A DNA stretch of 5,763 nucleotides from the NCBI GenBank assembly GCA_003557545.1, contig PWOD01000113.1, positions 1-5,763 on the forward strand, given 5' to 3'. Positions 1 through 4,901 of the stretch are shown here, one piece after another (the stretch's first letter is position 1; every line of letters starts with the position of its first letter). The position numbers and the translations under genes are program-made. Below the pieces are notes generated by a model that was not told the DNA's origin, made no database searches, and worked only from the letters and a program-made list of their open reading frames with translations. The stretch comes from a bacterium. GTDB lineage: Bacteria > T1Sed10-126.

Positions 1-654
1 GCCCAGTGTCTGGTTTGTCCACTCATCCTTACAGGTGTACAGATCGAGCAGAAGCTGCACGAGTCCTTCAGCATAACTGCGCTTACTCATCGACACCGAC
101 ATTTCACTCAGGATAATCGCACACTCACTCGTTTCCCGATATGTTGCGTACGTGCCGTCGTCAAGCTGCACCGGCTGTCCGTTTTTCTTTATATACTGCG
201 GTTTCGAGCTGGGTTTCATCTGTTGAAGCATCACTTCCGGGGTAAACTTATCCTTAATATAGCGTAAGTTTTTCACCGCGAGCATATTAGGATCTTTAAT
301 GTGGCGTTTAAGCCGGTCCATCATCGGCAGACAAAACTCATCAAGCGCCGTGGATTTTTTGCTGGCAGCAGGACCAACAAATATCACAAACAGATTGCAG
401 TAGAACTTGCTTGGATACCATTTTATCCATGCTTCACGCTTTATGACCGTCGACAGGAGAAACAGCGCACTCCACGTGCAAAAAAGTGACGGCGTTTCGA
501 TTCCTCTTGTCGCGTAAATGAAATCCGTAATAAAACTCTTACTCTTCGGGAGGAACTTATCGAACGGGTCTACACCACCATACTCCGGGTTGTTCCACCA
601 AGGATTAGGGTCTTTCGATTCATCGAACGGAATCGGAGCAGTTGGTTCTTCCAT
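1..654 (-). CDS. DUF3987-like phage primase/helicase ATPase, N-terminal part (partial, runs off left edge)
   Basis: The frame is open from ATG at 654 to the window edge, giving 218 codons without a stop. A hydrophobic strand (NLFVIFVG, residues 87-94) leads into a P-loop-like GPAASKKST (94-102), which fits the place of Walker A but lacks the usual Gly before Lys. A second hydrophobic strand ending in Ser-Glu (CAIILSEMSV, 178-187) could supply the Walker B acid. It is followed by an L-L-D-L-Y-x-C-x-D-x-W segment (202-212). This order resembles DUF3987-type phage/plasmid primase-helicase ATPases as I remember them; the family call is an inference. The start is 1 nt past the polymerase stop (TGA-T-ATG), an in-frame TAG lies just upstream, and no good Shine-Dalgarno is visible, so translation probably depends on reinitiation. 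Likely role: unwinding or priming DNA at the phage fork. The C-terminal catalytic part lies outside the window. Confidence 0.62.
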   Translation of the reverse strand, partial: MEEPTAPIPFDESKDPNPWWNNPEYGGVDPFDKFLPKSKSFITDFIYATRGIETPSLFCTWSALFLLSTVIKREAWIKWYPSKFYCNLFVIFVGPAASKKSTALDEFCLPMMDRLKRHIKDPNMLAVKNLRYIKDKFTPEVMLQQMKPSSKPQYIKKNGQPVQLDDGTYATYRETSECAIILSEMSVSMSKRSYAEGLVQLLLDLYTCKDEWTNQTLG

Positions 655-655
655 A

Positions 656-3307
656 TCAGCCAGTCCATTCTTCTACGTTGTACCAGTCGTCACCGACTTC
701 AATATCAATCGGGAATGAAACCTTATGCCCAAAGATATCAAACGTGCGCTCAAGCGCCGTTCGAACAATCGGGGCAATGTCGGAAAGCGCGTCTTCCCGT
801 ACTTCCAGAAGTACCGAGTCATGCACCATACCCATCAACAAGCAATCGTCTCGCTTGTATACCTTGTGGTACAACTCGATAAGCGCGTAGTTCATAACAT
901 CGGCGGCGACACTCTGGATTGGAAAGTTCAGACCTTCACGCACGATTTCGTTTTCCTGGCCCTGAAAGTAGCGGACCCGTCCAAAAGCATTCGTCAGTTT
1001 CCTGGTTTTCTTTACGGTACTAACCGTTTCGTTGTACCACTTATCGTATTGCGGATGCAGACTGCGATAGCGTCGATCGATCTCCTTGAACTGGTTGAAT
1101 GTAAGCGTGAGCGTAGGGTCTTCCTGCATGATCTTTTCATAGATCCCCCGCAAACTGCCGCCGTAATTCCGCCCGAAAATGTAGCGTTTTGCCAGGTTAT
1201 AGCGACTTTTCCAATCGGGATGAGACTCATCTATGTTGAACAGGTTCTTAGCGTTTACCGCATGAGGTTTATCTCCGTGACCGGCATCATAATCGGCGAA
1301 TGCTTTAAGGAGCACATCATCTTCGGATACATAGGCGAGCACACGTAGTTCCAGGTTCGAGTAATCGGCTTGCAGAAACTTCCAGCCTTTCTGTGCTTTG
1401 AACAGTTTGCGTGCTTCATACGGAATGTTCTGAGCGTTGCCGACACCAAGCTTTTTCTTGTCGCCTGAAGCAAGCCGCCCCGTATACGTACCGTGAATCT
1501 TGTACGGGAAATGCACCCGTCCGTCGGGGCCGATCTCGTAGCTTGTGTAGGTAGACAGTACCTTGCTTCGGTCCTGGTACTGGTGAAAAAGTTCTATAAA
1601 GCGTTGCAGCTTATACAGCCGGCGTTTTTCGTCCTCATGCTTTTTTGTCCTTCGCTTCAGATTTTCAATCTCATTCAGTCTATTGTTCAAGGCTACCGTA
1701 AGCCGCATCATCTGCTGTTTATCAATCGCCGATTGCCCCGACTCCGTTTTTGCAGGCTTCACTACATAGATAAGCGGTTGCGTCTGGCGGATCGCTTCAA
1801 TGTCTCCAAGAAGCTTTCGGTATGCTTTCGTGTTGGTCTTTTTGTTAGAACCGGGAGCGGTATACTCTGCAAGCTGCTGCTTTTTCTTCTTGAAGTTAGG
1901 CGGTTCAATTCCATACAGTAACCACCGGATATGCGCACCGCTGGAAAGATTGAATGTTGCAGGAAGTTCAAACTCTTCGTGGATCTGCTTATCTACAGCC
2001 TCAACTTGCGCTTGTACATCGCTTCGAAACTTCTGCAATCTGCTCTTTGAGATCGGCAACCCATTGTTCATCATTTCCTGACAGGGGGGAATAAGCCCGA
2101 TGGAAATATCATGGTACACTGTCGGCGAAGCAAACTTCTTCAGATCCTTGAGCATCGGGTCCAGACACTGAAGCAATACGACCGCATCACGAGCATTGTA
2201 CAACCTGAGCGTTCGAGGATCCATGTCTATCATACGGCTTGCATTTCCGACTACAGCGTCTTTCCAGAACGGCGTGTTGCCATACCGGGAAACAATCTGT
2301 CCGAGCCCATGGGGCAGCTCCGGGTTTATCGCATGATCGAGAAGCAGTATATCGTGCTCTACATTACGCACCGGAAATCCCCGTGCTTCCAGAACTCTCG
2401 TGTCATACAAAGCATTCTGGAATACCGTCGGGCAGACTTTAAGCACTTTCCGCAAGGCAGCATTTATCTTCTTTTCGTCGCTCGGTTTCCACAACTGCCT
2501 TCCGTACTGCGAAATATGAGGAATACTGATTGCATCTTCGCCGGACCAGGCTATACCCGTTACTATGAGTTCAGCCCGATGCGCGATAAGGCTTGTCGCC
2601 TCGATGTCTACACCAATACGCTTTTTCTCTTTCGCTAACCAGTTCAGGGTTTCCACAATTTCTGATGCGGTAGGAAATAGCTTGAAGTTCTCGCGCGGTG
2701 GCTTGTACTTTTTCGTCACGAGTTCGAACGCTTTTATCAAATCGTTTATCCATGTCGACTCCTGCTTTATCTGCCCACGCATAATGAAACTTGGATGAAA
2801 GGTCGGAACCGCAAGCACATCATACGAACCTTCCTCCACCGGATGCAGCTTCCCGTCAGTCCATTTAAGCGGGTAAATAGAGCCACGAACCTTGCTTATG
2901 CTCCCCTCAATACCAAGCGCATGTGTAGCGTGCGCGCCAAGCGGAACAATCACTTTCGCCCCTACATCCTTAAGTTCCTGTAGCAGCCCCGGCCTGCAAT
3001 GTTCTTTTGCTTCCCAGCCTTCAGTTGACTCAATGTTGTTTCCCGGAGGCCGACAAGAGATCACATTGGTTTTGTGCAGCGAATAGTACGGAAGGTCGGT
3101 GTATTTGACCGCTTTGCGAAGCCACTTTCCGGCAGGACCGACAAAAGGCTCGCCCTGGGCATCTTCGACTTCGCCAGGAGCTTCGCCCAACAACACGACT
3201 TGCGGCTTCTGGATTCCACTTAAGCCCCATACCTTGCATCCTCCGTCAAGCGGGCATGCGCTGCACTGTGCTGCTTTCCGCTTGTACCTGTAGTTCTCGT
3301 ACGCCAC
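656..3307 (-). CDS. Family-A DNA polymerase with N-terminal uracil-DNA glycosylase and 3'-5' exonuclease domains
   Basis: This 883-aa protein joins three domains. Residues ~10-200 resemble family-4 UDG: GEAPGEVED (41-49), PFVG (54-57), TNV followed by CRPPGN (80-90), HPS (171-173), and four cysteines spaced for a 4Fe-4S cluster (C15, C18, C85, C104). Residues ~205-390 are a DnaQ-like proofreading exonuclease with D234/E236, N298/D302 and Y370/D374. Residues ~395-883 are the Pol I core: FNLSS (452-456), TGRLAS (609-614), NAQNIP (624-629), motif A DYSNLELR (D648), motif B K707-x3-F711-G-x2-YG, NFPIQS (794-799), and motif C H829-D830-S831. No 5' nuclease domain is present. Oddities are an enlarged basic thumb, Tyr at the usual O-helix Arg position, and HDS instead of HDE. 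The start is GTG at 3307: AAGGAG sits 8 nt upstream and an in-frame TAA four codons before it blocks extension. The expected role is replicative synthesis with proofreading. UDG fusion to a phage polymerase is known from SPO1-like phages as I recall. Confidence 0.95.
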   Translation of the reverse strand: MAYENYRYKRKAAQCSACPLDGGCKVWGLSGIQKPQVVLLGEAPGEVEDAQGEPFVGPAGKWLRKAVKYTDLPYYSLHKTNVISCRPPGNNIESTEGWEAKEHCRPGLLQELKDVGAKVIVPLGAHATHALGIEGSISKVRGSIYPLKWTDGKLHPVEEGSYDVLAVPTFHPSFIMRGQIKQESTWINDLIKAFELVTKKYKPPRENFKLFPTASEIVETLNWLAKEKKRIGVDIEATSLIAHRAELIVTGIAWSGEDAISIPHISQYGRQLWKPSDEKKINAALRKVLKVCPTVFQNALYDTRVLEARGFPVRNVEHDILLLDHAINPELPHGLGQIVSRYGNTPFWKDAVVGNASRMIDMDPRTLRLYNARDAVVLLQCLDPMLKDLKKFASPTVYHDISIGLIPPCQEMMNNGLPISKSRLQKFRSDVQAQVEAVDKQIHEEFELPATFNLSSGAHIRWLLYGIEPPNFKKKKQQLAEYTAPGSNKKTNTKAYRKLLGDIEAIRQTQPLIYVVKPAKTESGQSAIDKQQMMRLTVALNNRLNEIENLKRRTKKHEDEKRRLYKLQRFIELFHQYQDRSKVLSTYTSYEIGPDGRVHFPYKIHGTYTGRLASGDKKKLGVGNAQNIPYEARKLFKAQKGWKFLQADYSNLELRVLAYVSEDDVLLKAFADYDAGHGDKPHAVNAKNLFNIDESHPDWKSRYNLAKRYIFGRNYGGSLRGIYEKIMQEDPTLTLTFNQFKEIDRRYRSLHPQYDKWYNETVSTVKKTRKLTNAFGRVRYFQGQENEIVREGLNFPIQSVAADVMNYALIELYHKVYKRDDCLLMGMVHDSVLLEVREDALSDIAPIVRTALERTFDIFGHKVSFPIDIEVGDDWYNVEEWTG

Positions 3308-3315
3308 GTTTTGTT

Positions 3316-3321
3316 CTCCTT
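3316..3321 (-). promoter_or_regulatory. Ribosome binding site of the polymerase, fixing a GTG start
   Basis: AAGGAG on the minus strand lies 8 nt before GTG at 3307, with an in-frame TAA overlapping its upstream side. There is no ATG in the reachable frame upstream, so this site decides the non-ATG start. Confidence 0.85.
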
Positions 3322-3570: not shown

Positions 3571-3892
3571 CAGATTTGGCTCCTATTCGCTTAAGGGCGT
3601 TATCCGCGGTTTTGTATGCAACCGTCCCCGGCGGAGAATTGACCATAATGCTCTCCAGTGCAGCCTCGAGGAACCCGAGCTTCCAGATATTCGACTGTTC
3701 TCCTTCTTGTGGACTTCCCCGGTTATCCGTATAGTCGTCATAAGAATCCAGCAAAGAACATAGATTGCTTCGCACATCAAGGATAAAACTTATTTGTGGT
3801 GACGGCAGTTCTTCACGCTCAAAGTAGTCCCTGATGACTGTATCTGCGGTCCTCAGTAGACTTCTAATAGTATCTTCTTTGGCTCGTGTCAT
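3557..3892 (-). CDS. Hypothetical protein, 111 aa, in the replication operon
   Basis: I do not recognise this protein. It looks mostly helical: residues 1-28 form an amphipathic charged segment, about 33-52 another (ISFILDVRSNLCSLLDSYDD), then an acidic/polar loop (54-67), then a helix around 69-84 (WKLGFLEAALESIM), and a basic C-terminus. There is no signal peptide, membrane segment or metal-binding cluster. ATG at 3892 overlaps the previous stop as ATGA, with GGAG 5 nt upstream, and the end overlaps the RHH gene by 14 nt. Its position between a candidate ssDNA-binding protein and the polymerase suggests a replication accessory role, but nothing in the sequence itself proves this. Confidence 0.8.
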   Translation of the reverse strand: MTRAKEDTIRSLLRTADTVIRDYFEREELPSPQISFILDVRSNLCSLLDSYDDYTDNRGSPQEGEQSNIWKLGFLEAALESIMVNSPPGTVAYKTADNALKRIGAKSDERK

Positions 3893-4434
3893 AACAACTC
3901 CACACTGAATGGCTTAACGCTCGGATAGATTACCGACCAGGGGTAATCATTCTCCGAGAGAAACTGAAAGATGTCCTGCACCTTTGTCTTCTTATCCACG
4001 AAAAGCAACTTATGCGCTTTTGCGTTGTTTGCCGAAATCTGCGGTGCAGCTTCTACTGTAGTCGTAGCAATTTCGCTTACCGTGAACCCAAGCCATTTGC
4101 CCGGATTACGGCGCGTAACTCTCAACGCTCCGCAAAGGGAAAACCACGCCGGTTTCCGTTCACCGGATCCACGCCCAAGCACAAACGCCCCCCGGTCAAC
4201 CGCCGTAGACACAAGCTGCATCACCTCTTCATCATTTTCACTTACGTCCGCGTCGATGATAACCAGCATAGCCTGCTTCAACGAAAACTCCCGCACGTTC
4301 TGTTCAAGCGCCGATATTACATCAACCGGTTTAAGCTCCTTAGCATTCGGCTTTCCAAGGTACAGATGAAACGCGACGGCCCCGTGATAGGGGCCGCCGT
4401 GTACCGGTTCAAGTACCAGTGAATCGATAAACAT
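3889..4434 (-). CDS. Hypothetical protein, 181 aa, in the replication operon
   Basis: I do not recognise this protein. It appears to be a soluble alpha/beta protein: strands near AVAFHLYLG (19-27) and AMLVIIDADV (55-64), a helix following it (about 68-80), a glycine-rich turn FVLGRGSGE (84-92), and a C-terminal strand-helix-strand (HKLLFV 141-146; about 150-161; WSVIYP 166-171). It has a single Cys (C101). There is no signal peptide or membrane span. The ATG at 4434 shares its A with the upstream TGA (TGATG), and no clear Shine-Dalgarno is visible, so it is probably translated by termination-reinitiation in fixed ratio to the DUF669-like protein. The next gene starts inside its stop codon. 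A replication-linked role is inferred from position only. Confidence 0.82.
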   Translation of the reverse strand: MFIDSLVLEPVHGGPYHGAVAFHLYLGKPNAKELKPVDVISALEQNVREFSLKQAMLVIIDADVSENDEEVMQLVSTAVDRGAFVLGRGSGERKPAWFSLCGALRVTRRNPGKWLGFTVSEIATTTVEAAPQISANNAKAHKLLFVDKKTKVQDIFQFLSENDYPWSVIYPSVKPFSVELL

Positions 4435-4901
4435 CAGTCGCGCAAATCCGACTTATCAGCCTGAATATCACCGATGTTCATGCGGGGTTCACCGGTCCTC
4501 TTGTCAGCACGATGGTAAAGCCGAATCCAGACTTCCTGATCGGCAAACTTTTCGAAGTCAACCTCATCATTCTTGTTCGGCTTTACGCTGGCAGCCGCAC
4601 AAAGCTGCGCAAGCTGTCCGATCGATCGCTCTTCGAGGTCCGGGCTGTAGCTGGGATGATCCTCATGGAGAAAGAAGATCGGAAGGCGAATGAGCCGACC
4701 TTTCACACTTTCTCCGTCGGACTGTTTCGGCCCATCAACCACTTTCCCCTGGATCTGGTAGATAGTCATGTTCTTGCCTTCCGGGGCGTTTTCCGAAAGC
4801 GGCCTGAGCTTCACCTTGTAGTCGCCCGCGTCAAACAGATAGTCGCCGCGCTGGATCCCGTGGGACTGACTGATACCTGGAACTGTCATTCGATTAGCCA
4901 T
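4434..4901 (-). CDS. DUF669/OB-fold-like protein, candidate single-stranded DNA-binding protein
   Basis: This 155-aa protein has the pattern of phage DUF669-type proteins: a short N-terminal stretch, then DAGDYKVKLRP (24-34), a strand-rich core (MTIYQIQGKVVDG 45-57; KGRLIRLPIFFL 67-78), an 'ERSIGQLAQLCAAASVK' helix (91-107), and a late strand DQEVWIRLYHR (121-131) before MNIGDIQ. It ends in a polar, mildly acidic tail (DKSDLRD), as in many SSBs. DUF669-like proteins usually sit in phage replication or recombination modules and are thought to bind ssDNA; family placement here is by remembered pattern, not search. ATG at 4901 has AAGGAG 6 nt upstream and was preferred over the internal ATG at codon 5. 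It is the first gene after a candidate promoter at about 4942-4954 and would lead the replication transcript. Confidence 0.68.
   Translation of the reverse strand: MANRMTVPGISQSHGIQRGDYLFDAGDYKVKLRPLSENAPEGKNMTIYQIQGKVVDGPKQSDGESVKGRLIRLPIFFLHEDHPSYSPDLEERSIGQLAQLCAAASVKPNKNDEVDFEKFADQEVWIRLYHRADKRTGEPRMNIGDIQADKSDLRD

Follow-up and report, generated by a model that had tools for sequence, protein, structure and literature searches.

What does a uracil-DNA glycosylase (UDG) domain do when it is built into the N terminus of a viral DNA polymerase? The question is raised by a window of 5,763 nucleotides (the whole stretch of DNA analysed here, contig PWOD01000113.1), in which a minus-strand ORF at positions 656–3307 encodes an 883-aa protein with UDG, 3′-5′ exonuclease and family A DNA polymerase parts, as delineated from the ORF itself, Pfam, PHROG_17 and a structural model. 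An earlier note, made from the sequence alone, had placed a UDG domain at 2708–3280, corresponding to residues 10–200 of this ORF, on a replicative phage polymerase, and had offered uracil excision, sensing of uracil or a modified base, and a structural clamp as its possible jobs. Our literature search found no study testing the function of the UDG domain on phage polymerases.

A family-4 UDG domain on a family A polymerase

The gene starts with GTG, and an AGGAG ribosome-binding-like sequence, read directly from the DNA, lies 8 nt upstream (3316–3320, minus strand). Pfam profiles matched the protein at residues 34–190 (UDG, 8e-20), 215–389 (DNA_pol_A_exo1, 8e-8) and 536–876 (DNA_pol_A, 2e-50), while PHROG_17 gave one unbroken match from residue 33 to 881. 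On the minus strand, the UDG domain thereby occupies residues 1–200 (2708–3307), the proofreading exonuclease residues 205–395 (2123–2695) and the polymerase domain residues about 536–880 (668–1702). The exonuclease residues D234, E236, D302 and D374 and the polymerase residues D648, K707 and D830 are intact in the same chain as the UDG domain, as expected of a member of the family A DNA polymerases. The AlphaFold2 model of the full-length protein, computed from an alignment of nine proteins of the clade described below, had a pLDDT of 86.2 and a pTM of 0.80, and for its residues 205–880 the matches to Klenow-type structures reached a Z of 36. Because comparison of the whole model with the PDB listed Klenow-type and theta polymerases only, the UDG domain was modelled and compared on its own.

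The first 208 residues predicted alone gave a pLDDT of 93.6 and a pTM of 0.90, and this model resembled the family-4 UDGs 4zbx (Z 23.6), 1ui1 and 1ui0 (Z 23.3), came close to a tie with UdgX (Z 21.3–22.4) and matched TDG/MUG at Z 13–14. The sequence agreed, with a Pfam UDG score of 71.7 bits (cut-off 24.3), NCBIfam matches to type-4 UDG (2e-26) and family 4 (3e-25), and a PDB sequence match to Thermus thermophilus UDG (1ui0, 6e-22). The curated full-length NCBIfam cut-offs were missed (92.9 bits against 250, and 89.1 against 125.3), so we name the domain family-4-type rather than a curated equivalog; such cut-offs govern naming and say nothing about structure. Sequence matches and model together confirm that the presence of a UDG domain on this viral replicative-type polymerase, as the earlier note had proposed, is well beyond chance, and specify it more exactly as a predicted family-4 UDG.

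Alignments to the Thermus enzyme define the active site. Mutants of Thermus UDGa place the uracil pocket at E41, G42, E47, F54, N80 and H155, with N89 positioning water, H155 acting as the main catalyst and E47 barring thymine entry (Xia et al. 2017, PMC5387724). These seven positions correspond to E42, A43, E48, F55, N81, N90 and H171 of the window protein, where every pocket residue of family 4 is found, alanine and glycine both being normal at the second place of motif 1 (PMC10359453). Aligned to 1ui0, motif 1, GEAPGEVED, spans residues 41–49 (3161–3187) and contains E42, A43 and E48, and motif 3, TNVISCRPPGNN, spans residues 80–91 (3035–3070) with N81 and N90, the roles of these residues following the same mutant study. 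Motif 2, HPSFIMR, spans residues 171–177 (2777–2797), with the catalytic H171 located by alignment to the T. maritima UDG. The four cysteines needed for a 4Fe-4S cluster are likewise present: C15 and C18 (3254–3265), C85 (3053–3055) and C104 (2996–2998), all on the minus strand. From these residues, we infer that the domain would hold a 4Fe-4S cluster and excise uracil.

The segments GEAPGEVED, TNV (residues 80–82), CRPPGN (85–90) and HPS (171–173) and the four cysteines are thus all where the earlier note had read them, and its view that the gene is not an obvious dead relic agrees with the intact pocket, Fe-S cysteines, and exonuclease and polymerase residues. The profile search and structure prediction that it had suggested returned a family-4 match and a confident UDG fold, and neither loss of a key catalytic residue nor absence of the fold was seen. 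We considered UdgX identity and rejected it on motif: UdgX is defined by the KRRIH R-loop and a GEQPG motif (PMC10359453), whereas the window protein has GEAPG and carries no KRRIH between N90 and C104, in accord with the earlier exclusion of a UdgX-type covalent trap.

Genomic setting and host

Downstream of the polymerase gene lies a DUF3987/primase-helicase-like protein cut by the window end (1–654, minus strand; phrog_14296, 2e-10), and the order of polymerase then primase is the same in the uncultured tailed virus vir526. A single-strand DNA-binding-like protein is encoded at 4434–4901 (minus strand; phrog_378, 1e-4). Also on the minus strand, positions 3889–4434 encode a 181-aa protein for which neither Pfam nor PHROG gave an above-threshold match. 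Its relatives lie close to the gene for the UDG-bearing polymerase in four of the clade viruses (best 4e-19), and it is possibly a member of the replication module.

Each of the 16 clade virus records contains one UDG, the fused one. Neither dUTPase (PF00692) nor thymidylate synthase (ThyA) was matched in these records; as they are mostly fragments, the failure to find a dUTPase or another UDG counts for little. SPO1 and LysYB1, both larger phages with degenerate UDG domains, do have dUTPase; this contrast with the clade, where dUTPase was sought by the PF00692 profile, is descriptive. In other phages with the fusion, 7-deazaguanine-type genes (QueD/QueE-like, GTP cyclohydrolase) lie beside the polymerase at L026 (1–1372), L033 (441–2329) and L034 (1–2210), and a split form, with UDG plus exonuclease and polymerase in separate ORFs, occurs at L028, L029, L033, L034, L059 and L060.

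The host was sought from the bin that holds the window contig. The bin looks bacterial and has its own PolA, but the tetranucleotide profile of the window misfits it (r 0.26, against more than 0.9 for most contigs), and contigs C155, C12, C20 and C111 are further composition outliers. Bin membership was therefore dropped as host evidence, and mis-binning of the window contig is probable. No bacterial 16S was matched in the bin, and the Cas1-bearing contig of the bin has no CRISPR array to match against the window. Among close relatives, the sole host label is Methanomicrobiales, as deposited for vir526.

Loss of the catalytic histidine among relatives

A single-sequence scan of viral contigs gave no matches, whereas alignment-based scans recovered a clade of proteins that are 31–44% identical to the window protein and lie on viral contigs of 8–50 kb; one scan of genome contigs returned matches to the polymerase part only (residues 570–879), with no UDG fusion. 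In all 17 clade proteins, the cysteines C15, C18, C85 and C104, the pocket residues F55 and N81 and the exonuclease residues D234, E236, D302 and D374 are invariant. Four other positions vary, with H171 and E42 each kept in 13 proteins, E48 in 14 and N90 in 11. The fold by itself could account for the conservation of N81 and F55.

The catalytic His has been lost three times within the clade, being replaced by Asn in the L044/L045 pair, Gln in L064 and Asp in L077, and again in the polymerase of phage PaBG. On a tree of 33 polymerases, made by a quick method from the part after the UDG domain and with many forks weakly supported, the L044/L045 pair, L064 and L077 are each placed among His-bearing kin, and all five main pocket residues are retained in 18 of the 33. 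The losses differ in extent. In L064, H171 and N90 are missing but E42, E48, F55 and N81 are still there; as its recognition residues are kept, and as the H155S mutation in Thermus UDGa lowers k2 by more than three orders while leaving Km nearly unchanged (PMC5387724), the L064 domain could, by analogy, still bind uracil. In L044/L045 and L077, E42 and E48 are changed as well as the His, and these domains may bind uracil poorly.

Selection on the His-less domain was gauged mainly from one close pair, other His-less pairs being near silent-site saturation. Between L044 and L045, the UDG part had an omega of 0.064 (bootstrap 0.028–0.122), which points to strong purifying selection, whereas the exonuclease gave 0.125 and the polymerase part 0.206. 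Constraint on the His-less UDG part is thus no weaker than on the polymerase part of the same proteins; the intact UDG domains of L047, L048 and L049 gave 0.04–0.08. The UDG domain therefore appears still constrained where excision should be gone, and, judged from these sequences, excision looks dispensable in the clade and the fold does not. Repeated loss of a catalytic residue while the domain is retained is the new point here, and a modest one. With a His that comes and goes in a domain under continued selection, the clade sets excision apart from a second role. It also offers natural pairs for direct comparison: the window protein, L042 and L075 with complete pockets, and L044, L064 and L077 without the His.

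Possible roles of the domain and comparison with known systems

Taken together, these observations lead us to favor, as the probable reading, that a small tailed virus uses the gene product as its replicative DNA polymerase, with a family-4 UDG as the N-terminal domain, and, jointly with this, that the domain is an active UDG, kept on the replicase to survey for uracil, with a further non-catalytic DNA- or uracil-binding role. Where the viral DNA is being replicated, the tethered domain would look for uracil arising from cytosine deamination or dUTP use, and uracil excised by it would leave an abasic site to host repair. Because an abasic site left by a UDG in single-stranded template would be a block, the timing or placement of excision would have to be controlled. 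A second, excision-free role, in which the domain would bind DNA or uracil beside the polymerase as a reader or processivity module, is suggested by relatives that lose the catalytic His yet retain the cysteines, the fold, and the Asn and Phe that bind uracil.

The simplest competing account is an ordinary active UDG fused for repair, whose sole job would be uracil excision during replication, the His-less relatives being isolated losses in decay. The complete pocket of the window protein and of most clade members, the five main residues kept by more than half of the polymerases on the tree, and the lack of a separate UDG or dUTPase match in clade records all agree with it. We nevertheless regard it as doubtful, since three independent His losses left the cysteines and fold in place, the His-less pair has the low omega given above, and SPO1 and others retain the domain though its pocket is largely gone. 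These same losses speak for a purely structural or processivity module, in which the domain would grip DNA or brace the exonuclease and polymerase in the manner of vaccinia D4, with excision incidental; several lineages keep the domain without the catalytic residues, and many of the predicted viral structures that match the UDG fold are long phage DNA polymerases, several at 11–17% identity. Retention of every pocket residue by the window protein and most of its clade would be superfluous for a pure clamp, however, and with N81 and F55 invariant in the clade, we judge this account unlikely.

A reader of hypermodified uracil in the viral genome, such as 5-hydroxymethyl-U, is very improbable. 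Some phages with the fusion do have modified DNA or the genes to make it, including the dUMP hydroxymethylase of SPO1 and 7-deazaguanine genes in BSP7, Youna2 and MaInes. The glutamate that blocks thymine, a C5-methylated uracil, in the Thermus enzyme (E47) is kept in the window protein as E48, which disfavors such a reader here; moreover, no gene of thymidylate-synthase type was found in clade records, and SPO1, whose thymine is modified, has a degenerate pocket unlike that of the window. The interpretation in the earlier note is thus partly supported: its sensor and structural-clamp options gain from the His-less relatives that keep the domain under selection, whereas a sensor of 5-hydroxymethyl-U in particular is disfavored for this protein.

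As a kind, the UDG-polymerase fusion is not new: many phages have it, and the structure of one such polymerase has been deposited. The window protein joins UDG, 3′-5′ exonuclease and polA in one chain, as do the polymerases of SPO1, phiLo and PaBG, and 47 phage records match the UDG domain by sequence, many of them within annotated DNA polymerases. Among annotated phages, the closest relative over the full length is the DNA polymerase of vir526 (Caudoviricetes sp., BK063670), which has the same three domains, a complete pocket and cysteines, and a primase gene next to it; it is 33.6% identical over 99% of the length, so that about two thirds of positions differ. The family-A polymerase of Thermus phage phiLo (PDB 9QHS, released 2026-03-25) likewise carries an N-terminal UDG followed by exonuclease and polymerase, but is 1175 aa long, only 28% identical in the UDG part, and has Gly at the N90 position; of the two structure comparisons, 9QHS came up in the one made with the UDG domain alone. 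SPO1 is the namesake of the family, and related UDGs in the PDB carry the SPO1 polymerase name. Its gp31 also has an N-terminal UDG domain on a phage DNA polymerase (Pfam 4e-22), but lacks the Fe-S cysteines and has Ser for N81 and Met for F55, and the phage encodes dUMP hydroxymethylase and dUTPase, in contrast to the clade records without dUTPase or ThyA matches. The DNA polymerase I of Pseudomonas phage PaBG, described with a uracil-DNA glycosylase domain in 2020 (PMC7412058), has lost, unlike the window protein, N81 and most cysteines together with the catalytic His. Thermus UDGa (1ui0) shares the pocket residues and cysteines at about 30% identity, but is a free-standing repair enzyme outside any polymerase.

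Outside the family, a UDG needed in replication apart from excision has its precedent in vaccinia D4 (PMC10253040), resembling the role proposed here as a UDG within a viral replicase; unlike the window domain, D4 is not a family-4 Fe-S UDG and is a separate subunit tied to the polymerase via A20. That a replicase can sense uracil has its precedent in the archaeal family B polymerases (PMC3210769). Both parallels are analogies of function, not descent. We tentatively raise the possibility that the UDG of this clade serves the replicase as an integral processivity module or reader of uracil, with excision optional: a phage or archaeal-virus counterpart of D4, or of the archaeal uracil read-ahead pocket, that evolved on a family A enzyme. 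The replication role of D4 was described in 2023 as apparently unique among DNA glycosylases (PMC10253040), and a second D4-like case, if true, would alter that apparent uniqueness.
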